40,096 nt of DNA from Lachnospiraceae bacterium (GTDB taxonomy: Bacteria; Bacillota; Clostridia; Lachnospirales; Lachnospiraceae). A program made the position numbers and the translations under genes. Of this stretch, positions 5,622-38,442 are shown in pieces. Positions within the stretch are counted from its first letter, which is position 1; each line of letters begins with the position of its first letter. The stretch spans positions 1-40,096 of the forward strand of contig JAFTEC010000025.1 in NCBI GenBank assembly GCA_017453865.1, in the 5' to 3' direction. The notes beneath the pieces are model-generated. The model saw only the letters and a program-made list of their open reading frames with translations, had not been told where the DNA came from and made no database searches.

Positions 5622-7463
5622 ATGAGCAACAGTCAGTTATATCCTTTTGAGAGAAACCGTTATTATCCGGGAAAGCTTTTGACAAGCGCGGATTTTCAGG
5701 CGGAACAGAACTACCATATCAATAAGGGCCGGTTTTTGAACGGTCTGATGTACGGCTCCGGCGTAGTGTGCGGTATGGGGGTCTTCAGTCTGGATGATAT
5801 CTCTATCCTTGTGGAAAGCGGTGTAGCCATAGACGGTACGGGGAGAGAGATAATCCTCGACACCTCTGTGGTAAAAAAGCTGTCCGCCATTGACGGCTTC
5901 GACAGCCTGAAGACGGATACGGCAACCTTAAAGATCCGTTATAAGGAACAGGATGTTCACAGTGTTTATTCGGTGAACCATAAGGAGGATGAAAAAGAAT
6001 ACGAATACAACAGGATAGCGGAGGGCTATGAGCTGTTCCTTACAGACAGGGATGATAACGATATCCCCTACAATCCCGAAACAGAATTCCTTACGAGGGA
6101 AACACTGTTTAAGAGCGAGAACTTTTCCGGTGAGATCATGATGCCTGCGACGGTCTGCCGCGGCAAAAACGTAAAGATAGTCTTGGAGATAAGGAAGCTG
6201 AGTGACGCGGATGTTTCCTTAAGCTGCAGAGGCGTACTTGAGATCCCGGTATTTGTGACCCCTGAGGGTGAGAATGAGATGGAGATCGGAGTGGAGGATC
6301 TTCTTCTTCAGAAGGGCGAATCCTTTAAGAGAGAATACTGGGTAAGAGTACTCGATACCGATGCCGGTGAAAGCGAGCTGATCTTAAGGAGCGGCTCCGC
6401 GACTGCATTTGAGGATGACAATGCGATAAAGACCTCTCCCCATTTTGCTCTGAGGGTGGTACTGAGCCATTCCTCGCCTCTCGAGCTCGTAAGCCGTGAA
6501 ACCGGAAAGATAAATCTGGAAATGTGGAGCATGGGGCAGGGAGATGAAGCCATCAGCCTTGCGGATATCAAGCTTGTCAGGAATCCCGGCAACTACATAG
6601 TCGAGAAGATCGGGGATCCTTCGGACAAGAAATACGTCCTTACTCCGGCCCAGGAGATAATGAGAAATAATTATCTTTCCTATTATCGGAAGGATGTGGA
6701 GCTGAAGAAGGAAATTGAAAGAAAAAAGACACCCGCACCGGCATCAAGGGGCGGAGAAAAGAGCGAATTCACGAATATAGCCACCGGAACCCTGGAGGTG
6801 CCCCTTGGCAGGAACGCCAGAGAGGGAGAGATCAGGTATTCCGGAGAGATAGCCCATGGGCTGGGACCCGGCAACGTGTATGTGGATATAGGCTACAATT
6901 ATGTTTCCGATACCCCGGAAATGGGAGCAAACCAGAAGAGTGTAATATACGGAAACCCCGGACTTTTCAGTCATTCCAGCAATGTCCTTGCTGATGTGGA
7001 AACAGCAGTAAAGGTCTTAAATGAGAAGGGCAGCTTCGTGGTTGCCGCAAAGCTCTTACGGAATGTGGATTATCTCGTGCTCACCTTCAAATGGGTGGCA
7101 ATACGCTTCCCTTCAGGAGATGATATCGCGCTTACAGAGGATTATTACGACAAGAGCATATCGGTTGATACGCCTACCGTCATTATGGGCGGCAAGGAAA
7201 GCCATTTCTTCGGTGTCAGGTTCAATAATATGAAGGCCTGCAGCATAACATATGAGCTTACAAGCCCGGGAAGCGGAGAGATAAGCTCCGACGGAATTTA
7301 TACCGCACCTTCAAAGGAGGGTGTATACGAGATACGTATCTACTGTACGGATATGCCTGTGATATGTACCTATGCTTACGCTATAGTAAAGAAGAAGATG
7401 CTGGATGCAGGTCCGGCGGGAGAGGTTATAACTCCGGAAGACAAACCTGGGGATAAGGCATGA
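5622..7463 (+). CDS. injection-system-associated protein with Ig-like C-terminal domain
   Basis: A 613-residue protein with no signal peptide or transmembrane segment. Its N-terminus (FERNRYYPGKLLTSADF, then AEQNYH and GSGVVCGMGV, residues 9-55) matches a motif I know from proteins of unknown function encoded in eCIS and other phage-tail-like loci, usually as RPRYFYGQLLTxxDFxxEQxY...HGxGVVCGL. The middle is beta-rich. The C-terminus (about 540-590, with SPGSGEISSDGIYTAPSKEG) resembles a bacterial Ig-like domain. The start follows AAAGGAGAGG at a rather long spacing. The stop overlaps the next gene by ATGA, so the two are translationally coupled. It may be a peripheral tail or fibre-like component, or an adaptor between the particle and the envelope proteins. 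The family link is fairly secure; the function is not. Confidence 0.7.
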   Translation: MSNSQLYPFERNRYYPGKLLTSADFQAEQNYHINKGRFLNGLMYGSGVVCGMGVFSLDDISILVESGVAIDGTGREIILDTSVVKKLSAIDGFDSLKTDTATLKIRYKEQDVHSVYSVNHKEDEKEYEYNRIAEGYELFLTDRDDNDIPYNPETEFLTRETLFKSENFSGEIMMPATVCRGKNVKIVLEIRKLSDADVSLSCRGVLEIPVFVTPEGENEMEIGVEDLLLQKGESFKREYWVRVLDTDAGESELILRSGSATAFEDDNAIKTSPHFALRVVLSHSSPLELVSRETGKINLEMWSMGQGDEAISLADIKLVRNPGNYIVEKIGDPSDKKYVLTPAQEIMRNNYLSYYRKDVELKKEIERKKTPAPASRGGEKSEFTNIATGTLEVPLGRNAREGEIRYSGEIAHGLGPGNVYVDIGYNYVSDTPEMGANQKSVIYGNPGLFSHSSNVLADVETAVKVLNEKGSFVVAAKLLRNVDYLVLTFKWVAIRFPSGDDIALTEDYYDKSISVDTPTVIMGGKESHFFGVRFNNMKACSITYELTSPGSGEISSDGIYTAPSKEGVYEIRIYCTDMPVICTYAYAIVKKKMLDAGPAGEVITPEDKPGDKA

Positions 7464-8305
7464 TATACGCCTCAAGGGACAACAGCTATACCACAATATC
7501 TACGGTCTTTGAGGGAAAGGTAAACGACTGCTTCATAGCGGGAAACACCGGATCCGGGGAAAAGGGACTTTATACCCTTCTCGTGATTAAGGATCATAAT
7601 ACGGTGCGCGATTTTATGGAAATATACAGACTGTGGAGATCTGAGGGGGACAGTCCGCTTATAGAGGCCTTTTCCTTCGGTCAGTTTTTCTGTCTGGTAT
7701 TTCCTTACAGGGTGGAGAGAGAGCTATATCGTTTCTTTGTTGGGGAGGCTTATACGCTCGAACGCTGTGAAGCGATATGTGAGAGCATCATCCTTGCCTG
7801 TATCGCCTCCTATCTTCCTCCGGCGCTGCTTTTTCTCATACTCAGCCAGAAAAAGATCAATCTTTCAAAGGATGACAGTGTGTTCCTGAGCTTTTCCGTG
7901 GATATGGAGGAGCTGGACAGGACAAAGACCGAAAAGGACTGCGCCACGGAGTGTGCCAGGATCCTTCTCGACATCCTGTCCACAAAGAAGAGTGAAAAGA
8001 ATATAAGCTACATCCTTCTCTCAAAGAAGATGAATAACCGGAGCTACAGCAGATTCACGGAGATATACAGGGATCTGAAGATCGCATCCACTCCCGTGAA
8101 GAAGAGGGGCATCATCCTTAGGATAAGAAGCTTCTTTTACAGGAATGCGGACACTCTTTTCGGGATACTTTTCTGGATATGCCTGATACTTATGGTGGTC
8201 GCACTGATCCTTCTGTTTTCCCATCTTGTGCTGGGAGATGTGCCGTTTTTAAGGATCTTTTTTAACAGCTTTAAGAATATCGGAACGGAGTCGCTTTTGC
8301 AATGA
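7460..8305 (+). CDS. membrane protein with pseudokinase-like cytoplasmic domain
   Basis: A 281-residue protein with one strong transmembrane segment near residues 228-253 and a short C-terminal extracytoplasmic tail; there is no signal peptide. The first ~200 residues fit a degraded protein-kinase fold: a Gly-containing turn (GNTGSGEKG), a beta-3-like lysine (LLVIKD), a hinge-like strand (FCLVFPY), a long helix, then LILSQKKINLSKDDSVFLSF where a kinase would have its catalytic loop. The HRD, DFG and APE motifs are absent, so catalysis is unlikely. The layout (cytoplasmic pseudokinase, one membrane helix, outside tail) recalls EssB/YukC of type VII secretion, but I see no direct sequence signature of that family. 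It overlaps both neighbours by ATGA, so it is tightly coupled to them. The fold assignment is by eye and needs structure prediction. Confidence 0.6.
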   Translation: MIYASRDNSYTTISTVFEGKVNDCFIAGNTGSGEKGLYTLLVIKDHNTVRDFMEIYRLWRSEGDSPLIEAFSFGQFFCLVFPYRVERELYRFFVGEAYTLERCEAICESIILACIASYLPPALLFLILSQKKINLSKDDSVFLSFSVDMEELDRTKTEKDCATECARILLDILSTKKSEKNISYILLSKKMNNRSYSRFTEIYRDLKIASTPVKKRGIILRIRSFFYRNADTLFGILFWICLILMVVALILLFSHLVLGDVPFLRIFFNSFKNIGTESLLQ

Positions 8306-10791
8306 ATATTCGCACACGGATAATAGCCTGTTTGGCAATACTTAGCGTTGTTGTATCTCTGGTCATACTGTCAGAGGCTCTTTCAAGTATGAGACATGAT
8401 CCGGAATACACCATCGCCGACAGCGGTATAGCCACAAATTCCGGAGTATATTTCGGTGAGAACTGGAATGAAAAGGGACTCATCTACCTTATAAATTCCG
8501 ATGGTGATGTAAAAGCCATGGTGAACTCGGATGATCTCGGAGAGGAGTCATTTGACGATTTATGTCTCGGGGACAACGGGATCTATGCCATGTTTTCCTC
8601 GCTGGAAGCTACGGATGACGGGGATATTGTACGGGTTTTCAGGATCTTTTCGTTTACACAGGATCTGAGGGTGATGGGCTCCACGGACCGGTTCATACTT
8701 GACAAGGACAGTGTTACCTATCACCTGTCCCAGGACGGGAATCTTCTCCATGTAACTATGGTGAGCTATCAGGGAGATGATATCAATGTTTATGAGTTTT
8801 CGAAGGACAGCATCATTCCGATCACCAAAAGCATAACGGTACTGGACAACAAAGAGAAGAAGGATGTTTCGGAGCTGGACGTTCCTGAAAGTATTCTCTT
8901 CAAGGACAATCCCAGCGGGACCATGTTTACGGATGCGAGATATGAGGGAGGCGTTCTGACGGTCCTGACGGAAAGGGATGAGCCGACAGGGGTATTCGTA
9001 CCTGACAGCAGGGTGAAGAACATCGTGGACAGGATGCATTTCTCGATCCCGCAACAGATGTCGCTTTACAGGGAATATATTTCCGTCTGGCTTATCGCCC
9101 TTATCCTGTGGCTGGCCTTCCTTGTATTTGTGTTCTTCATGCTCCAGAGAAGAGACCGGATGGTATACATCTTTGTGATAATGGACATTATCTTCTTCGT
9201 GCTGCTCCTGATAACCTTCCAGGTCATCCTGATATCCTACAGGAGGGTTGAGGAGGATGAGAACAGCAGATTCGCAAAGCTTTCCCTCGAATACGTGCTG
9301 CCAGATCTCGGGGATCTTGACAGCTACGATTTTGACGACAGGGATTTCTACATGAGTGACGAGTATGGCAAGCTTTCCGGCTTAATAAAGGATTTTATGA
9401 AGAGCGGGAATAATGCCACCTTTTTCAGGGATGTCTTCATAATGCGTATAAAGGACGGAATGATAATGGTCTCCGGTATTGGAAACAACAGAAGAAATGC
9501 TTCCTTTGCCTACGGAAGCGGTCTTACAACATTGAGGGATTCACTTGCAAGGCATGAGAGCACCGTTGTTGACAATATAAGGCTGGATTATATGGAGCTG
9601 GAGGCGACAGGGGTTAGATCCGGGAGGCCTTCTGCAAAATACGCCCTTGTGGGACTCTATTTCTCCGGAGAGTATTCAATGGGCTTCTGGAATCAGACCT
9701 ATCTGGTCCTTGTGGCATTTATTCTGGTATTCCTGATAGGCAGTGTACTGATTGCCTTTATCTCATACCTTCAGGGGCTTGATCTCCACGAATTCGAGCT
9801 TGCCATAAATGACGTGGCACTCGGAAGGACCAAGATCAGGGTTCCGGAAACCCCCGCCAGGGATATGAAGGCTATGTGGAACTCCTTAAGCGAGATGGCC
9901 AAGAGGATAGAGGAGATCAATTACGATAAATTCAGGATATTTGAGGGATATTACAGGTTCGCTCCGAAGAATATTGAGATGATAATGGGTAAGGATTCCA
10001 TTTTCGATGTAAATAACGGGGATGCGGTAAGCATCCGGGGAAGCCTTATGCTGGTATCTACCGAAGATAAGGGCTATGGGGAAAGAAGGATCAAGAGCCT
10101 TAAGAACATAGTTTCCTATACCGAACACTATACAGACAGTGAGGAAGGCATCCTTGTCAGTGAGGACAGCTCACTTTCCATCCTGCAGTTCCTGTTCCTT
10201 GACAACTGCCGCATGGTAACGGACAGAGCGGTCCAGTTCCTGCACAGGAATATGTCGGACCCGGATTCGGGATTTATATCCGCCTTCCTTTACTACAATT
10301 CCTTTATCTACGGAGTAGTGGGCGTGAATACTCAGAGCCTGGTTTTCCTTACGTCCCCGGATTCCGCGGAAATGGAGGCGTATGCTTCATGGTTTGAAAA
10401 GATGCAGATACCTCTTGTGGTGACCGGGGATATAGCAGAAAGAGAGAATATCGGACAGCACAGATACATAGGCTATATAGAGCTTAAGAACCGTACAAAG
10501 AAGATCAGGCTGTATGAGGTGCTGGATGCCTGCGAGGCAAGGCAGAGACAGCTTAAGCTTGCCAACAGGGAAAAATTCGAGAAGTCACTTGAGTACTTTG
10601 AGTCAAGAGACTTCTATCTCGCCAGGAATAATCTGACCGAGATCATCAAGGAGTGTCCCGAGGATGAAATGGCAAAGTGGTACATCTTTGAATGTGAGAA
10701 GTTCTTAAGCGGCGAGGCGGAGGAAGAGGAGCCCGGCAATATAAGAATAGGCGTAACTATTCAGAACAGTCACTTGCGGAACCGCAAGTGA
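8302..10791 (+). CDS. four-TM sensor protein with degenerate class III nucleotide cyclase domain
   Basis: An 829-residue protein. Transmembrane segments lie near residues 6-25, 262-281, 288-312 and 466-489. They enclose two extracytoplasmic regions (26-260, beta-rich; 313-465, sensor-like) and leave a cytoplasmic C-terminus, in agreement with the positive-inside rule. A HAMP-like helical linker follows TM4. Residues 546-742 follow the class III cyclase layout: the pre-catalytic motif YYRFAPKNIEMIMGKDSIFD with NNGDAV, the core, and the closing GYIELKNRTKKIRLYEVLD. A TPR-like tail (750-803, YFESRDFYLARNNLTEI) is typical of these cyclases. The strand that normally carries the first metal-binding Asp (xLFxDIxGF) reads MLVSTEDKGY, and no GDAxMAxF motif for the second metal is visible, so it is probably inactive. 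The gene overlaps its upstream neighbour by ATGA. I infer a ligand-sensing pseudocyclase that signals through its cytoplasmic domain. Confidence 0.72.
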   Translation: MNIRTRIIACLAILSVVVSLVILSEALSSMRHDPEYTIADSGIATNSGVYFGENWNEKGLIYLINSDGDVKAMVNSDDLGEESFDDLCLGDNGIYAMFSSLEATDDGDIVRVFRIFSFTQDLRVMGSTDRFILDKDSVTYHLSQDGNLLHVTMVSYQGDDINVYEFSKDSIIPITKSITVLDNKEKKDVSELDVPESILFKDNPSGTMFTDARYEGGVLTVLTERDEPTGVFVPDSRVKNIVDRMHFSIPQQMSLYREYISVWLIALILWLAFLVFVFFMLQRRDRMVYIFVIMDIIFFVLLLITFQVILISYRRVEEDENSRFAKLSLEYVLPDLGDLDSYDFDDRDFYMSDEYGKLSGLIKDFMKSGNNATFFRDVFIMRIKDGMIMVSGIGNNRRNASFAYGSGLTTLRDSLARHESTVVDNIRLDYMELEATGVRSGRPSAKYALVGLYFSGEYSMGFWNQTYLVLVAFILVFLIGSVLIAFISYLQGLDLHEFELAINDVALGRTKIRVPETPARDMKAMWNSLSEMAKRIEEINYDKFRIFEGYYRFAPKNIEMIMGKDSIFDVNNGDAVSIRGSLMLVSTEDKGYGERRIKSLKNIVSYTEHYTDSEEGILVSEDSSLSILQFLFLDNCRMVTDRAVQFLHRNMSDPDSGFISAFLYYNSFIYGVVGVNTQSLVFLTSPDSAEMEAYASWFEKMQIPLVVTGDIAERENIGQHRYIGYIELKNRTKKIRLYEVLDACEARQRQLKLANREKFEKSLEYFESRDFYLARNNLTEIIKECPEDEMAKWYIFECEKFLSGEAEEEEPGNIRIGVTIQNSHLRNRK

Positions 10792-10926: not shown

Positions 10927-12171
10927 ATGGGAGAGAATCTCTTCAGCGTTCTGTTTTCGACAATTAAATCCAGATTTGCCGCCATAGTTTCAAAGCTTCG
11001 TCTGTGGACCAGCTGGAACTTTATAAGGACCAGGATAATCGGCGGTATCAGGGATTTCATATTCGGTCTCCTGGATGTCCGGCCCAAGCATAAGAATGAT
11101 TATTACACCATATTCGGCTGGATGGTCAGCAAGAAGCTGGCTTATGCGGTGATAGTGATAATCGGTATCTTAAGCATATGGTACATAGGAGCCACGACAA
11201 AGATATTCTCATCCCTGACTGACGGCGGTATGAGGACATATTCCTATAATTCCATACTTTTACGTCTTGCATCAAACAAGGTAAGGATAAAGGGAAAGTC
11301 CGGGTATCTGGCATATGAGGGTGACGTGAGCAACGGATACGTAAACGGACAGGGAACACTTTTTTCTCCCGACGGTGTAGTGCTCTATGACGGTGCTTTT
11401 GTAAAAAACCGTTATGAGGGCAGCGGAACGCAGTATTTCGAGAGCGGAGTGATGCATTACAACGGTGATTTCCACGATAATCTCTATGAGGGTCACGGGA
11501 TACTGTACAGGGAGGATGGCTCCGAGGAATACGACGGTGAATTTGTGGCAGGCTTAAAGGAGGGTCAGGGAAGACTCTATGACAGCGGCGGCAATACCAT
11601 ATTTGAGGGACCCTTCTCATCGGATAATGTGGTCTACAGCTCCCTTCTCGGGAAAAGTGCCGAGGAGGTAAGGCAGATATACTACGGCAGCCAGATCCTT
11701 TATGAGGAAAATGAAAATACCGGAAGTGATATCGCCGTGGTGATGAACGATATCAATGCGATTTACTACGCTGCCGGCGATGAGGAAGCTACGGACGATT
11801 CCGAAAAGGTACAGGCAGTCTATGTGCTTTCCGATGTATTTAATTTCGGGAGTCTGGAGGCCGAGTCCATCGATGAATTGAAAAAAATACTCGGAGAACC
11901 CGTATATGAAGGAAATTCGGCGGTCATAATGCCGGAGGCTGTCGCCATAAACACCCTTAATAAGAAAAAGCACGCCCTTAACGGACGGGTGAATATGGAC
12001 ACTACGGAGAATTACAGTGATGACATAGTGATAAATGCCATAGACGACAGCTATAACGTATATATATATACATTCAGCAGAGGAAGTCTGGTTTACTCTT
12101 TTGTCTGCAATGATAAGGGAGGCTATTTCGATTTTTATGAGATCATGGAAAGTGAAGAAGATGCTGCATAA
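10927..12171 (+). CDS. membrane-anchored MORN-repeat protein
   Basis: A 414-residue protein with a basic cytoplasmic N-terminus, one transmembrane segment near residues 70-88 (LAYAVIVIIGILSIWYIGA), and then MORN-type repeats at about 129-230 (YEGDVSNGYVNGQGT, YDGAFVKNRYEGSGT, YNGDFHDNLYEGHG, YDGEFVAGLKEGQG). The repeats should lie outside the cytoplasmic membrane. MORN repeats form extended beta-hairpin ribbons used for protein or lipid contacts. The last ~180 residues are acidic and mixed alpha/beta with no recognised family. The start follows GAGGATAAGG. The stop overlaps the next gene by 11 nt. Its place between a sensor-like membrane protein and a secreted coiled-coil protein suggests it is part of an envelope complex, but no partner can be read from the sequence. 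Confidence 0.8.
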   Translation: MGENLFSVLFSTIKSRFAAIVSKLRLWTSWNFIRTRIIGGIRDFIFGLLDVRPKHKNDYYTIFGWMVSKKLAYAVIVIIGILSIWYIGATTKIFSSLTDGGMRTYSYNSILLRLASNKVRIKGKSGYLAYEGDVSNGYVNGQGTLFSPDGVVLYDGAFVKNRYEGSGTQYFESGVMHYNGDFHDNLYEGHGILYREDGSEEYDGEFVAGLKEGQGRLYDSGGNTIFEGPFSSDNVVYSSLLGKSAEEVRQIYYGSQILYEENENTGSDIAVVMNDINAIYYAAGDEEATDDSEKVQAVYVLSDVFNFGSLEAESIDELKKILGEPVYEGNSAVIMPEAVAINTLNKKKHALNGRVNMDTTENYSDDIVINAIDDSYNVYIYTFSRGSLVYSFVCNDKGGYFDFYEIMESEEDAA

Positions 12172-17063: not shown

Positions 17064-17651
17064 ATGGCAGATTATCCTATAATATCTGATGTAAGTGCAT
17101 ATATTGTAAGGACACTCAGGGAGAAGATGTGTCCGGAACCCATCCCCTCTCCCAATAATATCGAGATCAGCTCCCCGCTGTCTCAGGATGTGGACTATAT
17201 AGTCGGTCTGTATCTCTATGACATAGTGGAGGATGTGCAGGTCACAACCCCCCGTCTCTTTGAAAGGGGAAGAGCGGAGCTAAGTAAGCCGCCCAGACCA
17301 TATGCTCTTTACTATATGGTCTTTATCAACGGTTCCTCCCAGATGGGATTAAAGGCACCGGATATACAGAAGATCATCGGACGTGTGGCACAGATCGTTA
17401 ACGACAATAATTCCGTGCGTCCGGACGAGCTTCAATCCTGGCTCACGACCCAGGAACCTCCGATAACACTGTCTCAGGCGAAGATAAGTCTGGAGGAAAA
17501 GGTAAGGGTGTGGCAGGCTATCAATAAGCCCTATCAGATCAGCCTGTTCTACAAGGCGGCACCGGTTTACCTGTCAAGCGGCGAGGTCATTGCTACGCCG
17601 AGAGTCGTGGATGCAAGCTTCGGCCTGAGTATCACAGGCGGAGACGAGTAA
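17064..17651 (+). CDS. CIS tail terminator/cap protein (DUF4255, Pvc16/Afp16-like)
   Basis: A 195-residue protein that matches the DUF4255 (Pvc16 N-terminal) pattern. An N-terminal ISDVSAYIVRTLREKM helix is followed by ISSPLSQDVDYIVGLYLYDI, then KPPRPYALYYMVFI, and a conserved late segment (PYQISLFYKAAPVYLSSG) followed by RVVDASFGL. In eCIS particles this family binds the end of the inner tube and sheath, stopping elongation and forming the cap. Length is near that of single-domain members. It starts 4 nt after the preceding gene with a GGAAGGGTGAAG ribosome binding site. It is the first recognisable structural gene of the particle, marking the switch from envelope to structural genes. Confidence 0.92.
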   Translation: MADYPIISDVSAYIVRTLREKMCPEPIPSPNNIEISSPLSQDVDYIVGLYLYDIVEDVQVTTPRLFERGRAELSKPPRPYALYYMVFINGSSQMGLKAPDIQKIIGRVAQIVNDNNSVRPDELQSWLTTQEPPITLSQAKISLEEKVRVWQAINKPYQISLFYKAAPVYLSSGEVIATPRVVDASFGLSITGGDE

Positions 17652-26730: not shown

Positions 26731-26745
26731 CTTTCTATAGTTTAT

Positions 26746-27903: not shown

Positions 27904-27919
27904 GCGCAGTGAAAAACAG

Positions 27920-28813: not shown

Positions 28814-28829
28814 CAGGAAATGAGAAGCT

Positions 28830-29312
28830 ATGGCAGAAAACAAATTTCTGGGTACGGGATGTAAGTTCCCGGTAGAGATCGATCCGGCAACAGGAAGATT
28901 CATGACGGTTTCCGGAAACAGATCGGTAAAGGAATCGATATATCTTATACTTATGACACAGAGAACGGAGAGACTGGTGCGTCCATCCTTCGGTTCCGAC
29001 ATAATGAATTTCACCTTTATGGACACCGGGACCACTATGATGTCCATATTAAAGAGGAATATCATCCAGACCATAATGGATCAGGAGCCCAGGGTCGCGG
29101 ATCTCGATGTGATCACCGAATACAGGGAAAAGCAGGGTGTGATATACATAAACCTTGAGTATCTGGTACGGGATACCAATACCCGGGACAATATGGTATT
29201 TCCCTTCTATCTCGATAACGGTACGAAGGAGATGAGTGAGAACGAGGAAGGGGATCTGATAGCCGAGGGCTATGAGGGCGAGTATAACGACTTGGAGGAG
29301 AGCGGATCATAA
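28830..29312 (+). CDS. baseplate wedge protein gp25-like (Afp9-type)
   Basis: A 160-residue protein of the GPW/gp25 family: GTGCKFPVEIDPATGRFMTV at the N-terminus, SVKESIYLILMTQRTERLVR with the family signature RPSFGSDI (canonical form EPRxxFGSxI), and IIQTIMDQEPRVADLDVITE. This subunit joins the wedge to the first sheath ring. The C-terminus carries an extra acidic tail (EMSENEEGDLIAEGYEGEY). It lies between the spike and the large wedge genes and its stop directly precedes the next ATG. Confidence 0.93.
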   Translation: MAENKFLGTGCKFPVEIDPATGRFMTVSGNRSVKESIYLILMTQRTERLVRPSFGSDIMNFTFMDTGTTMMSILKRNIIQTIMDQEPRVADLDVITEYREKQGVIYINLEYLVRDTNTRDNMVFPFYLDNGTKEMSENEEGDLIAEGYEGEYNDLEESGS

Positions 29313-32300: not shown

Positions 32301-32381
32301 TCGGATCTGAAGGTCAGTCCTTTCATGGTCGTAAAGTCAGGAGAACACAAGGTACATATCAACCTGTCGTCAGCTGATTAA
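29313..32381 (+). CDS. large baseplate wedge protein, J/gp6-like (Afp11-type)
   Basis: A 1,022-residue protein. The N-terminus (ELAAQYVPEWHFDRSDPDIG, with AKIFAIQMQENVGLVNRMMD) and the later SNGYEGNVEAGAISEF and NPVRSYGGSNMETVHAALRR, followed by GRGRLVSANDYKWSIL, are typical of Afp11/Pvc11 relatives with a baseplate J domain. The part between carries long beta-rich insertions. A striking acidic loop (about 160-187, EIRDEEEEIEAEAEVNEEET) is probably exposed. The C-terminus (about 900-1020) has the gp6-like dimerisation pattern. Such proteins form the wedge frame that rearranges on firing. The start abuts the preceding stop. Confidence 0.9.
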   Translation: MKLYDCSVQDTENRIEELAAQYVPEWHFDRSDPDIGSAIAKIFAIQMQENVGLVNRMMDRYHAEFVNMLDISLKPAKPAGSLVQFNLIENSVPGTMVRKGTRLVSASGPDSSGSVLFETDREIYVTNSRIVDAFMTDREEGTFVPLLGKYRDPEIVEGMEIRDEEEEIEAEAEVNEEETETEEERGRNTIRPFVLFSEKGNIARSILILYHESVFDLEDEPIYIRISGNPELNKRIGNKEFRFRYYSKSGLKDFDRVELKEDGETFELEKHDPNAKFNLGNREYAIVILEAKDTIKQDIEADGISLSSSGRERPLEFVNDGSIDMDTDKFEPFTDTLSVYNECYLGSDVYFSKGGALITLTFHVNYGEKGLYLTKQEEEVQLKIFKKKPKVIAADIPADAYADEIVLEYFNGTGWRKLRCNSDVSEIFARVDAGDYEISFICPDDWAVTQSGAYIGRAIRMRLIKSDNCFLRPGIHHYPIISDMKVSFSFRGHFVAPGRTFLFAGTQRREITKDVKAGGSFIILSGGKYSDDALYLGFDKKMEGGPVSIYFELSEVINTSFLKCRFEYSTIHGFKRMKVVDHTLNFSRSGSIMFIPPSDMAFVTLEDRRRIWIRISRVHAQSASENSLFLPRIQRILVNVIGVSNIVTGNEENYYISESGPNLHFNLPQGNILDAEVWVNEKGALSAEEIERMKDNDPGSIRVEYDMLGNVSAAYVKWEETDSFLNKNGRRVYMIDRAVNELIFSDGKKADIPRVVDDVSFKVRVRVSNGYEGNVEAGAISEFAGTELYMDSVTNPVRSYGGSNMETVHAALRRGANVIYGRGRLVSANDYKWSILSYSDSIDKVACIEGDTINGVYNDADVSFVLLMRDFADGSFSFHSISEELKKYLLTISSVTISPDNIHIVEPIFVSVSVNVWADVGSIDESFETQNLIKSALKYYFNPVSEGEDPGWDIGVIPKISQIKMKLSSLKSKAVIRKISVIANYVDRDGAHETDLSDLKVSPFMVVKSGEHKVHINLSSAD

Positions 32382-32394
32382 CGGAGAAAGACAG

Positions 32395-34482
32395 ATGCTG
32401 CGTATAGAAGAGATCTCGGGAAGAACATATCAGGAGAGGATGGCGGATACCCTTACCACCCTTCCCCTTATATCGGAGGAATGGACAAACTATAATGCCT
32501 CCGATCCCGGAATAACCATTTTGGAAAACCTCATAGCTTTTGAAGCGCTTCAGGGCAGCTACATAAGTGATCTCGACTACGAGACCAGGTTTAAGCTCCT
32601 GAAGATGGCGGGCTTCACACCCTCAAGGGCAAAGTGTGCAAGGGTCCTCCTCTCTCCCGTGAATACGGAGAAGAGCTTCCGCCTGAGTGCAAACCAGAGA
32701 TTTAAGCTTGGGGATCTTATCTTTGAGACTAAGAAGGCCGTGAATACGGGAGGCATATATCTTACGGGGATATTCTCCTATTTCGGAGGCTCCTTCCATG
32801 ATTACAGCTTCTTAAGCGACAGGGAATTCAGGATGTCGGCCAGGGTATTCGGAGAGGAGCCTGAGACCGGCGACAGTATCTACTTTGTATCAAATGCCTT
32901 TCCGGACTGCGGAAGCGACACCTGCTTCTATATCTCCATGGATACCAGATTCAACCGGAATCCGGTTACCGACCGTTCGGACAATATATTTGCATCGATA
33001 AAGTGGGAGTATTATACGGCAGAGGGCTTTAAGGAGCTTAAGGTTCATGATTATACCGGAGCCTTTCTTCTAAGCGGAGAGATAAAATTCAGGATACCGG
33101 AAATAAAGGCCGTGCCCTACGACGGAGCTCCCGTAAAGGGCTACTGCATAAGAGCCACACTGACCCACGCAAGCTATGACGTGGTACCGAGATTCAAGTC
33201 CGTAAACGGCTTTCTCTTCGAGGTATGGCAGAAAAACTCAAGATCACTTTCCATCACCAGCCAGAAAACCGACAGGCTGGAGATAACCAGTCCCTTCGAG
33301 GACGAGTATGTGCTGGTATTTGCCAAGGAAAAGAAGGGATCCTCCTACAGAAGATATGAGCTGGTAACAGGATACGGAAAAAAGGGCAGGTGCTGTCTCT
33401 ACGAAAGAAAAGGAAAGAGGAGATTCTCACTGACCTTTGATGAAGAAGCCTTCGGCTATGCTCCGTTTAAGACAAAGGATGCTGTGCGTGTCGTTCTTTA
33501 CAGCGAGGAGGTTATGCGCCGGTACCGCATAGGACAGGTCCTGGGCTATGATGACCAGGAGCTGGAGCTTCCCTTAAAGCATATAGTTCCCGACAGCTTC
33601 TGCCTAATAGCAAAGAGATATGATGAGGATGGCGGGGAAATCTATAATTTCGTGCGTCCCGGGAAAAATGAGGGTGACGCCCTGACCTTCCATCTCCTTG
33701 AGAATGACGGAAAGATAGTGATAGAGGATGCGGGGGACTACATAGGGGCTGAACTTTTTATGGCTTCTGCTGCGATAACGGACGGGGCAAGAGGCAATAT
33801 CAGGGCAGGAAACAGCCTGAAGGGCCTTGAAATTGACGGAGATCCGGTATTTTATAATCCGGGACCCGGAAACGGAGGGGCATACAGGGAGAGTCTTGAG
33901 GAGGTAAGAAGCCGCTTCAGGGAGGATATCTTTACTCCCTACACCTGTACCACCGCAGGTGATTACGAGAGAGTGGTGGCGGCTACACCGGGGCTCTGCA
34001 TCAGGAAGACAAGAGCCGTTATGGATGAGATGGAGAACATAGTCCATATCGCCGTGATGCCGGGAACGGACGAGGAATTTCCAACTCTTTCCGAGGAATA
34101 CAGGAAGTCGATCCATGATACACTTTCCGAAAGAAGGCTTATCACCACGAGGTTCCAGATACTGTCACCCGTATATACGAAGGTATCCGTTAAGACCACG
34201 GTATATGTGAAGAGACATATAAGCGATGCACTTGAGCGTATAGAGGCGGCACTTAGAAGCAGGCTTGATTATATTTCCGGGGATAATAATTTCGGCGACG
34301 TGCTCCGTTTCGAGGATGTTTTCTATGCTATGGATGAGCTGGACTGTGTGGAGGATGTCTATGAGCTCTATATCAGGCCGGAGAACGTAAAATATGCGGT
34401 TCTCAGGGATTCAAACATATATCCGAAGGAAAACTGTCTCCTGTACCCCGGGAACCTGGATATAGAAATAGTGGGCAGCTGA
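32395..34482 (+). CDS. second baseplate wedge protein, J/gp6-like (Afp12-type)
   Basis: A 695-residue protein beginning with the wedge pattern YQERMADTLTTLPLISEEWT, then NASDPGITILENLIAFEALQ. Its C-terminal third contains FTPYTCTTAGDYERVVAATP, HIAVMPGTDEEFPTLSEEYR and a TRFQILSPVYTKVSVKTTVY segment, as in baseplate J proteins. It pairs with the preceding wedge protein, as Afp11 with Afp12 and as the two gp6 copies in T4. Its stop lies inside a 6-bp hairpin. The ribosome binding site is AACGGAGAAAG, 13 nt after the preceding stop. Confidence 0.88.
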   Translation: MLRIEEISGRTYQERMADTLTTLPLISEEWTNYNASDPGITILENLIAFEALQGSYISDLDYETRFKLLKMAGFTPSRAKCARVLLSPVNTEKSFRLSANQRFKLGDLIFETKKAVNTGGIYLTGIFSYFGGSFHDYSFLSDREFRMSARVFGEEPETGDSIYFVSNAFPDCGSDTCFYISMDTRFNRNPVTDRSDNIFASIKWEYYTAEGFKELKVHDYTGAFLLSGEIKFRIPEIKAVPYDGAPVKGYCIRATLTHASYDVVPRFKSVNGFLFEVWQKNSRSLSITSQKTDRLEITSPFEDEYVLVFAKEKKGSSYRRYELVTGYGKKGRCCLYERKGKRRFSLTFDEEAFGYAPFKTKDAVRVVLYSEEVMRRYRIGQVLGYDDQELELPLKHIVPDSFCLIAKRYDEDGGEIYNFVRPGKNEGDALTFHLLENDGKIVIEDAGDYIGAELFMASAAITDGARGNIRAGNSLKGLEIDGDPVFYNPGPGNGGAYRESLEEVRSRFREDIFTPYTCTTAGDYERVVAATPGLCIRKTRAVMDEMENIVHIAVMPGTDEEFPTLSEEYRKSIHDTLSERRLITTRFQILSPVYTKVSVKTTVYVKRHISDALERIEAALRSRLDYISGDNNFGDVLRFEDVFYAMDELDCVEDVYELYIRPENVKYAVLRDSNIYPKENCLLYPGNLDIEIVGS

Positions 34483-34492
34483 TGTCATCAGC
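34478..34492 (+). promoter_or_regulatory. short hairpin over a stop codon
   Basis: GCTGAT pairs with ATCAGC across a GTC loop, and the TGA stop of the wedge gene lies within the stem. It resembles the stop-codon hairpin at 10769-10792 but is much shorter, so chance is a fair alternative. Confidence 0.3.
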
Positions 34493-34525
34493 GGTCCGTT
34501 GATGAAAGGAGCGGCATAGAAGCTT

Positions 34526-35626
34526 ATGCCCAGATATTCCATAAGAAAAAACAGAATAACGCAGGGAAGCCACAAGGGCTTCAGCTATGATCCGGTCTTA
34601 AGCCCGACGACCTTAACCTTTGATCCCAATGAGATGTTCCATGCGATATTCCTTAAGGGTATAGATTCCACCGTAAAGGGAGCGGGATGGGGCAGGCTTT
34701 TCTTTAAGACAGCGGGATCGGATGAGGCTGCAGTTACAGTCTATATCCTTTCCACCGATTATAAGGATACCCTTTCCGAGGCCGCGGGAATGGATATCGA
34801 TAAATATCTCTGCGGGGAGGAAGCGGATGTAAGGGAGAAGACAGAGTTTATGAAAAGAATGGGTGCGGTCCGTAAAACCTGCTCCGACTGTCTTTTATAT
34901 GATGTTTCGGGACAGTATATCTTTATAGCCATAGAGGTTTCGGGCGAGGGAAGACTTGATATCTCTGATATCGTCCTTGACAGCACCGGGGATAACTTTA
35001 TGGATACCTATCCGGAGGTATTCAGGCAGAGAAACAGCTTCTTCCACAGGTATGTCTCAATCTTTTCATCCATATACAACGATTTCCAGAGGGACATTGA
35101 CTCCCTTTCGGATGTGCTGGATCTGGATAAATGCAACGAGGAGCAGCTTATTATCTACGGAGGCTGGATGGGTATGGATCTTTCCGGGGGCTTTCTGAAG
35201 GAGGATGTGCTCCGTCAGCTTGTGAAGGAAGCCTACAATCTGAACCGTATGAAGGGAACCAGAAAAGCGGTTGAACGGATACTTGAGATCATACTCAGGG
35301 AAAAACCTGTTATAATAGAACATAATCTCGTGCGTTCCGCGATAAAGGAGGAAAAGATAGAGCTTCCGGAGAATTTCAGGGCGCGCGGGATATATGACGT
35401 CACCATTTTGGTAAAGCGTCATCTCACAGAGGAATTACGGCATCAGGCTTTGTATATCCTGGATCAGTACAAGCCCTTAAGGACCCGCTTTTCCATTGCA
35501 CAGCTTGATGAGAGGCCTACAGCCGACTCCAACAGCTACCTTGACATAAATACGAAGCTGCCCGAGGAGAGCAAGGCTGTTCTGGACGAGGAGATCTCCA
35601 TGGACGGCATCACGGTTTTGCTGTAG
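34526..35626 (+). CDS. tail protein I-like baseplate component
   Basis: A 366-residue protein. The region 155-262 (FMDTYPEVFRQRNSFFHRYV, then IYNDFQRDIDSLSDVLDLDK, LIIYGGWMGMDLSG and AYNLNRMKGTRKAVERILEI) follows the pattern of the phage tail protein I / P2 gpI-like family found beside wedge genes in CIS loci. The N-terminal ~150 residues form a separate beta-rich domain. The C-terminus (IYDVTILVKRHLTEELRHQA, YKPLRTRFSIAQLDE) is also family-typical. AAGGAG lies 14 nt before the ATG, an unusually long spacing; an ATG 24 nt upstream in the same frame runs into a TAG. It likely links the wedge to outer baseplate parts. No tail-fibre gene follows. Confidence 0.85.
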   Translation: MPRYSIRKNRITQGSHKGFSYDPVLSPTTLTFDPNEMFHAIFLKGIDSTVKGAGWGRLFFKTAGSDEAAVTVYILSTDYKDTLSEAAGMDIDKYLCGEEADVREKTEFMKRMGAVRKTCSDCLLYDVSGQYIFIAIEVSGEGRLDISDIVLDSTGDNFMDTYPEVFRQRNSFFHRYVSIFSSIYNDFQRDIDSLSDVLDLDKCNEEQLIIYGGWMGMDLSGGFLKEDVLRQLVKEAYNLNRMKGTRKAVERILEIILREKPVIIEHNLVRSAIKEEKIELPENFRARGIYDVTILVKRHLTEELRHQALYILDQYKPLRTRFSIAQLDERPTADSNSYLDINTKLPEESKAVLDEEISMDGITVLL

Positions 35627-35646: not shown

Positions 35647-35946
35647 ATGAATATATCGGAAATAAAAAATGAAGGCAGTATCCGGCTTGATGTGGAAGGA
35701 AGGCTGGACAATTCAAACAGTACGGAATTTCAGGAAAAGCTCCTCAAAGCCTATATGGTTACAAATACCGTAATAGTCAATATGGAGGAAGTTCCCCAGA
35801 TATCAAGTGCGGCCTTAAGGGCTCTTATGCTGGGAAAGAAGACTGCAGAGGCAAAAGGAGGAACCCTTCTGGTAATAAATGCGGGTACTTCCATAAGGGA
35901 GGTTTTCAGGGTGACAGGCTTTGACAAGCTGATTGACATCCGTTAG
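35647..35946 (+). CDS. STAS-domain protein (anti-sigma factor antagonist-like)
   Basis: A 99-residue single STAS domain: SIRLDVEGRLDNSNSTEFQE, then VIVNMEEVPQISSAALRALM and GTLLVINAGTSIREVFRVTG, with FDKLIDI at the end. The ISSA motif (S53, S54) corresponds to the DSSG phosphorylation site of SpoIIAA/RsbV-like proteins, with Ser kept although the preceding Asp is Ile. Such proteins take part in partner switching, binding a GHKL-family kinase when unphosphorylated. A GHKL-type ATPase is encoded two genes downstream, but it is of histidine-kinase rather than RsbW type. The ribosome binding site is GGAAGGAG. It may control assembly or firing of the particle; that is inference. Confidence 0.9.
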   Translation: MNISEIKNEGSIRLDVEGRLDNSNSTEFQEKLLKAYMVTNTVIVNMEEVPQISSAALRALMLGKKTAEAKGGTLLVINAGTSIREVFRVTGFDKLIDIR

Positions 35947-35949: not shown

Positions 35950-36594
35950 ATGATAAGCTTTGAAAAGATCAAAAAAACCTTCGGTGAAGATGAAAAGCCT
36001 GTATTTGAAGATTTTAACGAGTCTATAGAGGAAGGCGAGTTTGTCCTCCTTACGGGGAGGAGCGGCAGCGGGAAAAGTACACTTATAAATATGCTGTTAA
36101 AGGAAACCGAGCCTGACGGAGGGAGGATAGTGGTGAACGGCCGCGATCTTTCATCCATAAAGCCCGCTGAGATACCCTTTTACAGAAGGGGCATAGGGGT
36201 GATCTTTCAGGACTTCAGGCTTTTTGATGAGTACACGGTATTCGGCAATCTGGAGGTTACACTTAATTTAACCGGCGGCAAGGGCAAGGATACGGAAAAG
36301 AGGATAACCGATATCCTGAAGCTTCTCGGAATAGACAGGCTCTATAAGCGTTATCCGGGGGAGCTGTCCGGAGGAGAAAAGCAGAAGGTATGTATGGCGA
36401 GGGCTATAATCAACGACCCGAAGATACTCCTCGCGGATGAGCCTACAGGAAATCTGGATCCGGGTTCATCAAAGGATATATTTAAGCTTTTGGAGCTCAT
36501 TCACAGACAGGGAACAACGGTGGTGATGGCAACGCATGACTTTGATACCGCCGGAGCCTTCATTAAGGAGGGAAGAAGGGTTTCCCTGGACTAA
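35950..36594 (+). CDS. FtsE-like ABC ATPase without adjacent permease
   Basis: A 214-residue ATPase with all ABC motifs: Walker A GRSGSGKST (36-44), Q-loop Q87 in GVIFQDFRLFDEYTVFGN, signature LSGGE (139-143), Walker B ILLADEPTGNLD (159-170) and switch H196. The Q-loop surroundings are like FtsE, which with FtsX controls cell-wall hydrolases, and the MacB/LolD-type ATPases are the nearest alternatives. No FtsX- or MacB-like permease is encoded in the window; the next gene is a two-TM histidine-kinase-like protein. It starts 3 nt after the STAS gene stop and has no strong ribosome binding site, which suggests translational coupling. I would not call this the cell-division ftsE. Confidence 0.85.
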   Translation: MISFEKIKKTFGEDEKPVFEDFNESIEEGEFVLLTGRSGSGKSTLINMLLKETEPDGGRIVVNGRDLSSIKPAEIPFYRRGIGVIFQDFRLFDEYTVFGNLEVTLNLTGGKGKDTEKRITDILKLLGIDRLYKRYPGELSGGEKQKVCMARAIINDPKILLADEPTGNLDPGSSKDIFKLLELIHRQGTTVVMATHDFDTAGAFIKEGRRVSLD

Positions 36595-36619: not shown

Positions 36620-37513
36620 ATGTCTGTTATTCAGAAAGTTCTGCTTGTATTTGGCTGCATTCTCTATGCGGCCACCATATACTGTCTCTTTGTAGGTGAC
36701 ACTTATTTTGTGGTGTTTTTCTTACTGCTGCATTCCCTGTGTCTCATTTTCTTTTCCTACAGAACGTACACGGATATGGCGTCAACCGCTCACTTTACGG
36801 ACACTTACCAGCAGGATATAGGTATGGAGATGGCCGCGAAGGATAAGGAGCTGGAAACGCTGAAGGAGGAGCTTGATCAAAGGGAAAAGAGAATCAGTGA
36901 GCTTTACGACAATATAGCGGAGCTGAACGACAGATCAAGCGGCCTGGAGAAGGAGATCGCCGGACTCCAGACGGAAAAAGCAGCTATCATGGCAGGCATT
37001 GAAAAGGAAAAGGCGGAGAAACCGAGCGACTACGGAGCACTTCTGCCTCCTGCCAATGATGAAGAAAATGCCGAGACGGTAAACATCATTGATATAGCAG
37101 AGGCAGCGAAGCAGGAATTCCTGACGGATGCGAAGAATGTGAATATGGCCATCAATATTTCCTCGGCAGACAGCACCCTTCTCGTAAAGGCAGATCCCAA
37201 CCGTCTTCTGATACTTTTCAGGAATATTATAGATAATTCGATAAAGTATATGAGGAAGGCCGGAAGTCTCGTGATCACGGTATCAACCATAGGGGACGAT
37301 ATCTTTATCGTTTTGAAGGACACCGGAGAAGGGCTGCCGGAGGATGAGACAAAGCATATCTTTGAGCTTAATTACCAGGGCAGCAACAGGGTAAGCGGCA
37401 ATGGACTGGGTCTCGCCCAGGCAAAGGCCATTGTGGAATATTACGGCGGAACCATATACGCAAAGAGCAGCAAGGGTCACGGAATGGGTATCTATATTCA
37501 GCTTCCGGCGTAA
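36620..37513 (+). CDS. two-TM histidine-kinase-like ATPase lacking a phosphoacceptor domain
   Basis: I start at the ATG after GAAAGG (9 nt), which leads into a membrane segment. The 297-residue protein has two transmembrane helices (about 7-25, 28-47) joined by a very short loop, a coiled coil (about 70-132), a linker, then a HATPase_c domain: N-box RNIIDNSIKYM (N202, N206), G1 DTGEG (234-238), F-box-like HIFELNYQG, and G2 GNGLGLAQAK. There is no HisKA/DHp motif (no HE-x-R-T/N-P) between coil and ATPase, so autophosphorylation on histidine is not expected by the usual route. No response regulator gene is nearby. The short periplasmic loop suggests sensing through the membrane or a partner. 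It may phosphorylate or bind the STAS protein, or respond to ATP. Confidence 0.85.
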   Translation: MSVIQKVLLVFGCILYAATIYCLFVGDTYFVVFFLLLHSLCLIFFSYRTYTDMASTAHFTDTYQQDIGMEMAAKDKELETLKEELDQREKRISELYDNIAELNDRSSGLEKEIAGLQTEKAAIMAGIEKEKAEKPSDYGALLPPANDEENAETVNIIDIAEAAKQEFLTDAKNVNMAINISSADSTLLVKADPNRLLILFRNIIDNSIKYMRKAGSLVITVSTIGDDIFIVLKDTGEGLPEDETKHIFELNYQGSNRVSGNGLGLAQAKAIVEYYGGTIYAKSSKGHGMGIYIQLPA

Positions 37514-37525: not shown

Positions 37526-38218
37526 ATGAAAAACGGAATAGGAAAAAGAATATTGATGATTGTCGCCCTGTTTTATATTTTCGTGACGCTTCTCGCCGTG
37601 GGGATCCTAAACTTAACCAGAGTAACGAAGAAGGAGCAGGCGGTCATAGAGGAAGCTATCGACAAGCAAAAGGAAAACAGGGTAGCTGCCATGAGTAAGC
37701 TACAGGACAAAGAGGATCAGGAAACGGTCTCTTCCGGGGTGACCGGAGAAAGCGAAGAGGCGAGCGAGGAAGCCTCCACGGAGACCGCTGCTGAAGCTCC
37801 TGAGGAAGAGGAGATCCCGGAGGATACGGGAACAAAATATTACGCCTTTACAGCGAATAATTCCGCGGGAAGGCTTAATATCAGGAAGGAGCCAAGCATC
37901 AGGGCAAAGATAATAGGAAGGATGCATCCCGGGGACAGGGGCTATATTCTTGATATCGGAGATGAATGGTCAAGGGTTTCCGTGAACGATAAAAACGGAT
38001 ATTGTGCGAATGAGTATCTGTCCATAAGGGAGATAAAGGAAGAGGAATATCCGGATGAGCTGAAATCCCTTATCGGAGCCGGTGAGGATATACCTGAAGA
38101 GGAAGCAGGCAGAGAGGATACGCCGGAAGAGGAGCCTCTGGAGGAGCCTGCGGAAGTGGGCGTGCCTGAAGTGAGTGTGCCTGAAGTGAGTGTGCCTGAA
38201 GAAAGCGTAGCGGAATGA
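37526..38218 (+). CDS. membrane-anchored SH3-domain protein
   Basis: A 230-residue protein with one transmembrane segment near residues 9-29 and an extracytoplasmic remainder. A helical stretch (31-65) and an acidic Ser/Glu linker lead to a bacterial SH3 domain at about 105-170 (AGRLNIRKEPSIRAKIIGRM, GDRGYILDIGDEWSRV, NGYCANEYLS). Such domains bind peptidoglycan or peptides. The C-terminus is acidic and ends in three VPEVS-like repeats. The gene starts 12 nt after its upstream neighbour and overlaps the next by ATGA. It could dock the complex on the cell wall. Confidence 0.87.
   Translation: MKNGIGKRILMIVALFYIFVTLLAVGILNLTRVTKKEQAVIEEAIDKQKENRVAAMSKLQDKEDQETVSSGVTGESEEASEEASTETAAEAPEEEEIPEDTGTKYYAFTANNSAGRLNIRKEPSIRAKIIGRMHPGDRGYILDIGDEWSRVSVNDKNGYCANEYLSIREIKEEEYPDELKSLIGAGEDIPEEEAGREDTPEEEPLEEPAEVGVPEVSVPEVSVPEESVAE
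38162..38206 (+). repeat. three 15-bp in-frame repeats
   Basis: GTGCCTGAAGTGAGT occurs twice in tandem, followed by a third unit ending GAAAGC. They encode VPEVS, VPEVS and VPEES at the C-terminus of the SH3 protein. Confidence 0.9.
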
Positions 38219-38442
38219 GGCTTGACGACAGACTGGTAAAGGACCAGCAGAGAGTTGAAAAGGCAAAGACACTTCCGGATGCTTATTATGATTCGGAGGC
38301 TGCCTGGATGGAATATAAGGACAGGGAAAAGGAGGTTCCTCTTGACAGATATAAGGGAGCCTTTGCGGTCGAGGATAAAAAGTCAATAAATACCCGCCCC
38401 TCGGTCTTTGATGCAACCGCCGTTTTCAAGACCCGGGAATAA
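38215..38442 (+). CDS. small unrecognised protein
   Basis: A 75-residue, highly charged soluble protein (LDDRLVKDQQRVEKAKTLPD at the start, TRPSVFDATAVFKTRE at the end). No family, membrane segment or metal motif is visible. Its ATG overlaps the stop of the SH3 protein and the ATPase gene follows 14 nt after its stop, so it is real by context. It might be an adaptor between the membrane proteins and the ATPase, but there is no direct evidence. Confidence 0.6.
   Translation: MRLDDRLVKDQQRVEKAKTLPDAYYDSEAAWMEYKDREKEVPLDRYKGAFAVEDKKSINTRPSVFDATAVFKTRE

Follow-up and report, generated by a model that had tools for sequence, protein, structure and literature searches.

Here we report that a contractile injection system (CIS) of the extracellular (eCIS) lineage, encoded on contig JAFTEC010000025.1 of a Lachnospiraceae bacterium (assembly GCA_017453865.1), is accompanied by a block of genes for membrane proteins that, by gene order and by presence across genomes, belongs with it. 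The window that we analyzed is this one entire contig of 40,096 bases, from a draft genome of 2.23 Mb; coordinates refer to it and genes lie on its plus strand unless stated otherwise. Pfam and PHROGs matches place the CIS proper at 17064-35626, and upstream of it stand, in order, a gene in the fibre or crown position (5622-7463, hereafter the crown), a putative membrane pseudokinase (7460-8305), a putative pseudocyclase sensor (8302-10791), a MORN-repeat protein (10927-12171), a TolC-like protein (12161-14194) and a Ser-Gly-rich protein (14201-17059). We call these genes the left block, and the pseudokinase, pseudocyclase and MORN genes within it the trio. The co-travelling membrane genes suggest a syringe that is docked and triggered at the producer's own membrane rather than released, and we assign a probability of roughly 55% to an eCIS-lineage CIS that works docked at the producer's own cytoplasmic membrane.

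Left-block genes are linked to the injection system

All 29 genes from 5622 to the contig end are encoded on the same strand; the gaps between them have a median of 13 bp and a maximum of 135 bp, and the run is 98% coding (the starts of two genes in it were picked by us). This agrees with the original prediction, made from the window's sequence, of an eCIS-like tail at 17064-35626 within a packed, co-directional cluster. That prediction had also named seven proteins with membrane segments in this run (pseudokinase, pseudocyclase, MORN, TolC-like, Ser-Gly, HATPase and SH3), and a simple hydropathy scan indeed gave at least one transmembrane (TM) segment in each. The sheath was the sole structural protein to score a TM segment, at residue 303, which is probably false.

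To characterize linkage we used 80 loci, the best 80 of 446 confirmed relatives as selected by crown similarity, whose flanks are often short. A case entered the gene-order counts if it had 400 bases of room or more, and the genes counted are those matched by profile, unmatched open reading frames (ORFs) between them being ignored. The order crown, pseudokinase, pseudocyclase, MORN, TolC-like, Ser-Gly and next gene was fixed across these loci: for the successive steps, the expected gene followed in 77/77, 74/74, 65/65, 64/64, 58/59 and 28/28 cases, the lone exception being a locus (L163) with no Ser-Gly gene by profile after its TolC-like gene.

Presence across a family sample of 397 genomes gave a concordant picture. 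The sheath was found in 44 genomes and the crown in 41, with 39 common to both; crown without sheath occurred in two draft genomes, G146 and G163, which are 68% and 87% complete. The pseudokinase was found in 24 genomes, all of which also carry sheath and crown, and in 0 of the 353 sheath-less genomes; its profile was built on the window's own clade (clade A, below), so that the count of 24 is probably too low for loci of the other layout. We considered the five sheath-only genomes among the 44 as counter-examples, and none shows a baseplate without a crown. Three (G046, G361 and G253) hold isolated sheath or sheath-tube genes with no baseplate matches in the stretches taken and are probably decayed CIS remnants, so that at least three of the 44 sheath genomes are remnants; the G344 contigs, about 20 kb in length, gave no baseplate match in the parts taken (all of C36 and the first 7 kb of C37), and the sheath of G233 sits on a 3.8 kb contig.

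Two layouts retain the crown and, mostly, the trio

We read 18 family neighborhoods besides the window. Ten loci, window included, share the window's layout and are referred to as clade A; an eleventh, G046, joins them by its sheath and is a remnant. Eight further loci, referred to as group B, have another layout, in which the block stands after the baseplate genes. A sheath tree unites all 11 rows of clade A (100/100), and group B does not form a single clade in it, with G761 falling among seven members and G380 pairing with G739. The crown was present in 8/8 group B loci and in 9/10 clade A loci, the tenth (G307) being found by a genome-wide profile search. MORN was found in 8/8 and 8/10, respectively; the two clade A misses (G357 and G149) are antisense ORFs chosen by the script, and the G357 contig, sampled as L148, has the gene. 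The pseudocyclase was matched in 9/10 clade A and 6/8 group B loci, with the two group B misses (G309 and G056) lying near the end of the stretch, and the pseudokinase in 10/10 and, by profile, 5/8, with an unmatched gene of similar size at its place in G106 and G380. In group B the block flanks the structural genes on their other side and MORN still stays near the crown, so that the linkage survives rearrangement.

Other flanking genes go mainly with clade A. The TolC-like and Ser-Gly genes were found in 10/10 clade A and 0/8 group B loci. Downstream of the structural genes, the right block was incomplete within clade A itself (STAS 8/10, HATPase 8/10 with two elsewhere in the locus, ABC 6/10, SH3 5/10), with G080 and G307 carrying their HATPase and SH3 genes on the opposite strand, and as a block it was found in 0/8 group B loci; single profile matches lie about 9 kb upstream in G196 (SH3) and elsewhere in G056 and G380 (ABC). 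The left block recurs with the CIS in other genomes, and the right block does not belong to the conserved set. The condition that the original prediction set against itself had a mixed outcome: the structural module does occur in relatives lacking part of its flanks, since group B is without TolC-like, Ser-Gly and right-block genes, while the crown and the trio are kept there at the frequencies given above.

Two genomes of the window's own genus differ from it, G380 by carrying the layout of group B and G079 by giving no match to the sheath. The type of locus is thus not fixed even within this genus.

Outside the family, crown-profile matches were obtained in 16 of 398 genomes sampled across the phylum, two of these lying inside the family. 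Ten of the other 14 genomes were read, and in three of the remaining four the match is confined to the C-terminal 70-80 positions. The ten loci that were read are all CIS loci. A MORN homologue stands next to or near the crown in 6/10 (on the opposite strand in G542 and G702), a pseudocyclase was found in 4/10, a pseudokinase match in 3/10 and a weak TolC-like match in one (G602). In four loci (G581, G776, G493 and G705) a crown homologue stands without any trio gene; therefore the crown can exist without the trio, and these distributions suggest that the crown is older and that the trio was added in one branch.

Two group-B-like loci outside the family (L182-L183 of G739 and L187-L188 of G702) lie near a substrate-binding-like protein, recognized by eye, and near a transporter of the major facilitator superfamily (Pfam MFS_1 for G739) whose N-terminus is sensor-like. 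These neighbors recall the solute-binding-like domain of CisA, a membrane protein of the Streptomyces CIS.

In clade A the fibre-position protein is conserved in its C-terminal part

The crown gene (5622-7463) encodes a protein of 613 residues with a CIS13/Cis19-like N-terminal domain and a β-rich C-terminal part, an assignment drawn from the NCBIfam family NF053767, a profile match to PDB entry 7b5h and gene position. It has no TM segment in the hydropathy scan and no Pfam match. The original prediction saw no tail-fibre gene; as worded, this overlooks the present gene, which it covered but left unnamed and which occupies the fibre or crown position. NF053767 ('CIS13_fam') matched 23/23 crown family members at E up to 0.1, the best at 132.5 bits against an equivalog cut-off of 370 and all reported matches below that cut-off; in the two members displayed the match sits in the N-terminal part. 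Crown-family profiles also matched All3314 (Cis19; 7b5h_AA) with E values of 0.0075 and 0.0046, aligning residues 20-70 with 20-73. The crown gene directly follows the Tail_P2_I gene in 8/8 group B and 9/10 out-of-family loci, a spot that holds fibres or CisA in other systems (PMC12237407).

Searches with single sequences gave no solved homologue for the window's crown, and for an outgroup crown gave low-complexity and other unconvincing matches to solved structures, which we rejected. Eight pattern matches in viral contigs, all to one pattern, were considered as phage homologues of the crown, and none was confirmed.

In a fibre, the receptor-binding tip is expected to be the most variable part. 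Over the 80 sequences, from loci selected by crown similarity, the crown is 70% identical in its N-terminal part, 45% in the middle and 72% in its C-terminal part; its length is steady, at 589-617 residues in 9/9 clade A matches, and a TM segment was scored in 1 of 17 matches (G180, at residue 46). Within clade A, the 72% identity of the crown's C-terminal part compares with 25% in the exoplasmic domains of the sensor: the crown tip does not diversify, and the sensor does. Because the C-terminal part is conserved where a receptor-binding tip should vary, we read the crown as a probable adaptor at the baseplate periphery rather than a target-binding fibre. No diversifying fibre was recognized in the window, and the crown is the only candidate there for an Afp13-like receptor-binding fibre.

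The trio encodes candidate receiver proteins

The pseudokinase (7460-8305) has a cytoplasmic kinase-like domain, one conserved TM segment near residue 233 and a short exoplasmic tail that ends in FxxIGTxE, as judged by profile and hydropathy. The top PDB match of its profile is the protein kinase 2x4f, a weak one (E 0.006), and a consensus of 58 rows contained no HRD, DFG or VAIK-like catalytic motif recognizable by eye. A C-terminal TM segment was found by hydropathy in 15/15 matches, and the exoplasmic tail is the best conserved stretch (70% vs 48%). When the clade A pseudokinases are aligned with ten proteins from group B or outgroups (hhalign probability 99.5, E 3.6e-23), the match covers nearly the whole protein, TM segment and exoplasmic tail included, and by this profile comparison the proteins are one family. 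In the type VIIb secretion system, a secretion machine of Gram-positive bacteria, the pseudokinase EssB/YukC likewise joins a cytoplasmic pseudokinase domain to one TM segment; 7460-8305 has no YukC Pfam match at E up to 0.05.

The sensor (8302-10791) is predicted by hydropathy and from its homologues to comprise two exoplasmic domains, four hydrophobic segments, a cytoplasmic, degenerate class III cyclase-like domain and a TPR-like tail. Identity is lowest in the exoplasmic domains, at the 25% noted above, and rises to 37% in the cytoplasmic part and 51% in the TPR-like tail. HAMP was matched in three of five homologues scanned, all three from group B or outgroups, one of which also matches Guanylate_cyc (E 0.004) and TPR_16, both below cut-off; neither HAMP nor Guanylate_cyc was matched in two clade A homologues or in the window's sensor. 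As only group B and outgroup homologues match these domains, the cyclase label of the window's sensor rests on homology. The cyclase motifs were judged by eye to be degenerate in the homologues.

The MORN protein (10927-12171; Pfam MORN, E 4.2e-13) appears bitopic, with about 70 cytoplasmic residues, one TM segment and exoplasmic MORN repeats; one TM segment at residue 70-85 was scored in 13/17 matches, in both groups of loci.

Two further proteins complete the left block in clade A. The TolC-like protein (12161-14194) is an exported-looking coiled-coil protein with C-terminal β domains; its match to OEP falls below cut-off (E 0.0012), its homologue in strain XBB2008 matches above it (E 1.7e-7), and its start is, by eye, probably 12161 rather than the TTG at 12101. 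Since the window's own draft genome, which is 87.5% complete, has no Omp85 match, an outer-membrane role of this protein is unlikely. The same negative, together with the placement of the nearest named relative, strain AD3010, in Lachnospiraceae, Bacillota, is consistent with the single-membrane (monoderm) organism originally supposed. The Ser-Gly-rich coiled-coil protein (14201-17059) carries an N-terminal hydrophobic segment and may be membrane-anchored or exported.

The structural module is complete

The window holds the eCIS-lineage set of sheath, tube, hub, spike, gp25, wedge, cap and AAA+ ATPase genes in one cluster. It opens with a tail terminator or cap gene (17064-17651; Pvc16_N, PF14065, E 2.8e-27), whose product has no PDB match, an adjoining conserved gene of unassigned role (17691-18431) with profile matches in clade A and group B and no Pfam match, and a PAAR-like spike tip (18428-18817; DUF4280, PF14107, E 2.2e-32). 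The contractile sheath (18862-20559; PF04984, PF17482) finds its best PDB sheath in 9ezm_A (E 9.5e-109) and also matches the PVC, AFP and Anabaena sheaths. It is followed by the inner tube (20590-21090; gp19, PF06841, E 2.8e-29), a tail assembly chaperone (21187-21549; phrog_508, E 1.5e-9), a small ORF conserved in clade A by profile (21546-21758) and a second tube-like protein (21772-22713; weak match to phrog_4542, E 0.0015), whose variable C-terminal extension gives lengths of 158-864 residues across clade A matches. The coiled-coil-like product of 22714-24957, with no Pfam match, is by its position a candidate tape measure or lumen cargo. Two CIS_tube-type hub proteins starting at 24961 and 25846 (24961-26730; PF19266, E 1.7e-19 and 9.2e-12) precede a hub or VgrG-related protein (26746-27903; a PHROGs tail protein, phrog_52, E 2.6e-14; NF033848, E 1.1e-7, below cut-off), the spike (27920-28813; Phage_base_V, PF04717), gp25 (28830-29312; PF04965) and three wedge proteins (29313-32381, phrog_6; 32395-34482, Baseplate_J, PF04865; 34526-35626, Tail_P2_I, PF09684).

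Capsid, terminase and lysis genes had no Pfam match among the 30 window proteins scanned, a set that leaves out the small ORFs 21546-21758 and 798-1190 and the minus-strand ORF 801-1343. Nor was there a Pfam match among them to the TssJLM trans-envelope complex of the classical type VI secretion system (T6SS, subtypes i-iii), a negative that covers the window and not the rest of the genome.

The right block and cargo-like genes vary

The right block comprises a STAS anti-sigma-factor-antagonist-like protein (35647-35946; PF01740, E 7.9e-14) with its SSA motif kept in 8/8 aligned sequences, an ABC ATPase with no adjoining permease gene (35950-36594; PF00005, E 8e-37), a membrane GHKL ATPase with a coiled coil (36620-37513, the start being probably about 36620 by eye; HATPase_c, PF02518, E 1.4e-21) and a membrane-anchored SH3 protein (37526-38218; PF08239, E 3.4e-9). 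The GHKL ATPase matches the histidine-kinase type best, keeps its ATP-site motifs in 8/8 aligned sequences and has no evident H-box. A small ORF (38215-38442), matched in AD3010, adjoins a CIS-associated AAA+ ATPase gene (38457-40096) within which the contig stops, so that the locus is cut at its right end. The cut protein has no Pfam match, and its AAA+ assignment by Pfam comes solely from the full-length AD3010 orthologue, which is 93% identical over the shared part (PF00004, E 2.6e-27).

The AD3010 locus, 83-94% identical to the window at the DNA level in aligned pieces, continues beyond the cut with the complete AAA+ ATPase and a second AAA+ ATPase; on the opposite strand it encodes a SpoIIE phosphatase domain protein that has two hydrophobic segments. 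SpoIIE-type phosphatase genes were seen in the AD3010, G129 and G278 loci, without a systematic screen, and the STAS, GHKL ATPase and SpoIIE set resembles what would be a partner switch. Cargo-like genes vary between loci, with Ntox11 in G129, a calpain-type protease in G370 and, in AD3010, no extra gene at the cargo place between right block and ATPases. The G129 locus (L046:2291-8450) holds its SpoIIE phosphatase gene together with two Ntox11 toxin genes flanking a GNAT acetyltransferase gene. In G370 the calpain-type cysteine protease gene (L055:2294-4618), a candidate cargo gene, is downstream of the AAA+ ATPase, and near the CIS another gene (L055:7271-9037) encodes a fusion of a MatE transporter with a HATPase_c_2-like domain (below cut-off). 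Near the group B CIS of G106 lies a gene for an Amidase_3 cell-wall hydrolase with DUF4214 repeats (L079:2315-4516).

On the left, 1505-5548 encodes a large protein that looks secreted and has a C-terminal hydrophobic segment. Its relatives stand upstream of the crown in 17 of the 80 loci and, in G041 and G357 (the latter with two copies), downstream of the AAA+ gene. The protein may thus be cargo or a surface protein linked to the CIS. The minus-strand ORF 801-1343, whose motifs we take to be carbonic-anhydrase-like, is the likely left border of the locus.

Docking, release or self-targeting

If the CIS works docked at the producer's own membrane, a complete tail, the structural genes of which are in place, would assemble in the cytoplasm. 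The crown would decorate the baseplate at the site taken in other systems by fibres, crown or anchors, and would there meet a membrane receiver composed of pseudokinase, MORN protein and pseudocyclase sensor. The fast-evolving outside domains of the sensor would read a signal, which the degenerate kinase and cyclase domains would relay as conformational switches, not as enzymes, and the sheath would then contract through membrane and wall, with cargo going outward or into the producer's own envelope. In the window's clade the TolC-like and Ser-Gly proteins may form an extra wall-spanning layer, and the STAS, membrane phosphatase and GHKL ATPase set may add control. A narrower version, in which Bacillota possess a T6SS-like mode of their own, with the tail docked on a pseudokinase, pseudocyclase and MORN receptor, fired outward through the thick wall upon an outside signal and, in the window's clade, passing a TolC-like wall collar, is tentative and has odds well short of even. 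The original prediction had already proposed a CIS anchored in, or fired through, the producer's envelope; the linkage of the left block, the membrane segments and the lack of a recognized diversifying fibre support it in part, and the right block that it enlisted is not part of the conserved set.

Several observations weigh against docking. Membrane sensors can also regulate expression or release. The trio is not universal, with three of eight group B loci lacking a pseudokinase profile match, one of them (G385) having no separate gene at that place, and with four of ten out-of-family loci having a crown homologue and no trio gene. The likeness to Cis19 is weak (E about 0.005) and spans about 50 residues; the predicted crown fold is of low confidence (pLDDT 62.7, pTM 0.37), and Foldseek gave only generic β sandwiches with TM-scores below 0.5 among the matches listed, Cis19 not being among the 50 listed. 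Crown conservation was measured on loci selected by crown similarity, and clade A and group B crowns are only 24-28% identical to each other.

One rival explanation is a conventional, released eCIS, in which the crown protein would be a short target-binding fibre and the membrane proteins would sense conditions and control assembly or release. The NCBI family name CIS13 is the fibre's name in AFP and PVC numbering, the STAS and SpoIIE-type genes look regulatory, crown-bearing CIS loci without the trio exist, and Bacillota eCIS with fibres attached via Tail_P2_I have been described (PMC12923769). We consider release unlikely, given a C-terminal part that, at 72% in crown-selected loci, ranks with the best conserved parts of the block in clade A, the opposite of what fibre tips do, a steady protein length, the very tight linkage of the trio and the lack of a Pfam lysis gene among the scanned window proteins. 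Equally improbable, in our estimation, is a self-targeting cytoplasmic CIS of the Streptomyces kind, in which envelope stress would lead the membrane proteins to recruit and fire the CIS and kill the producer. It draws on the parallel with CisA (PMC12237407), on stress-type partner-switch genes nearby and on AD3010, which has no obvious extra toxin gene between right block and ATPases; the two Ntox11 genes and the GNAT gene of the G129 locus suggest non-self targets instead, and suicide would seem to benefit single cells less than it does mycelia. That the membrane genes are unrelated neighbors sharing an operon by chance would fit the variation of flanking cargo-like and right-block genes between loci, and is contradicted for the left core block by the counts: the pseudokinase is absent from every sheath-less family genome, gene order is kept up to the TolC-like gene in every locus with room, and the left core is retained in a second group with a different layout. 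We regard this explanation as very improbable.

For CIS triggering at a membrane, CisA is in Streptomyces the only membrane protein known to be needed. The locus provides candidate receiver proteins, conserved as a set in gut Lachnospiraceae. Many of the bacteria that carry the syringe come from ruminants, and sequenced strains carry the locus (AD3010, XBB2008 and AE3009, which we take to be cultured rumen isolates). Should docking be true, monoderm gut bacteria would gain a contact- or signal-dependent mode of injection, and the combination of crown, pseudokinase and MORN would be a genetic marker predicting that mode.

Comparison with known systems

Our searches of open-licence papers turned up no title or abstract on this locus, nor any account of MORN or pseudokinase proteins with a CIS, and a catalogue of fibres that excludes loci without fibre candidates reports fibres in Bacillota (PMC12923769). 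The original prediction had called membrane wiring distinctive for a single-membrane cell, which overstated the case given CisA of Streptomyces coelicolor (PMC12237407) and a haloarchaeal CIS (PMC11566945); a membrane-wired CIS is already known from Streptomyces, from thylakoid-anchored CIS (tCIS), from haloarchaea and, by suggestion, from T6SS subtype iv and the Bacteroidota injection systems (BIS).

The S. coelicolor CIS (type IId) is alike in belonging to a monoderm, in having an eCIS-type tail without a conventional fibre and in having a membrane protein gene just after the baseplate genes, and CisA, the product of that gene, is described as needed for contraction (PMC12237407). By hydropathy the MORN protein has a topology similar to that of CisA (cytoplasmic N-terminus, one TM segment and exoplasmic C-terminal part), and in group B the MORN gene stands one or two genes after the crown. 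Unlike S. coelicolor, the locus here has at least three membrane proteins, with kinase-like and cyclase-like parts, plus a crown.

T6SS subtype iv and BIS, with homologues of Aasi_0556, are alike by description in that 'Cis13' replaces the fibre and is proposed to aid anchoring at the inner membrane (PMC12210884). In the haloarchaeal T6SS-mode CIS, also related to eCIS and tCIS and also of a single-membrane cell, the membrane protein Hbor_38620 marks one cluster clade; this protein differs in having six TM segments and a short cytoplasmic domain, and the cluster has no Cis19 or Cis6 homologues (PMC11566945). The window's seven membrane-segment proteins include none of its fibre-position or wedge proteins. 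T6SS subtype iv and BIS hosts are diderm, unlike here.

The tCIS of Anabaena, finally, is anchored to thylakoids by fibre and baseplate extensions, namely a TM segment in the fibre-like Cis13 and an extension of Cis12 (PMC8894136). It is alike in its membrane anchoring, which is proposed for the present system, in all3314 lying beside the baseplate genes and in its crown, All3314 or Cis19 according to Weiss et al. (PMC8894136), whose N-terminus weakly resembles that of the protein encoded at 5622. In contrast to that TM-bearing Cis13, hydropathy gave no TM segment in the window's 5622, 32395 or 34526 products, and separate membrane proteins are present here.

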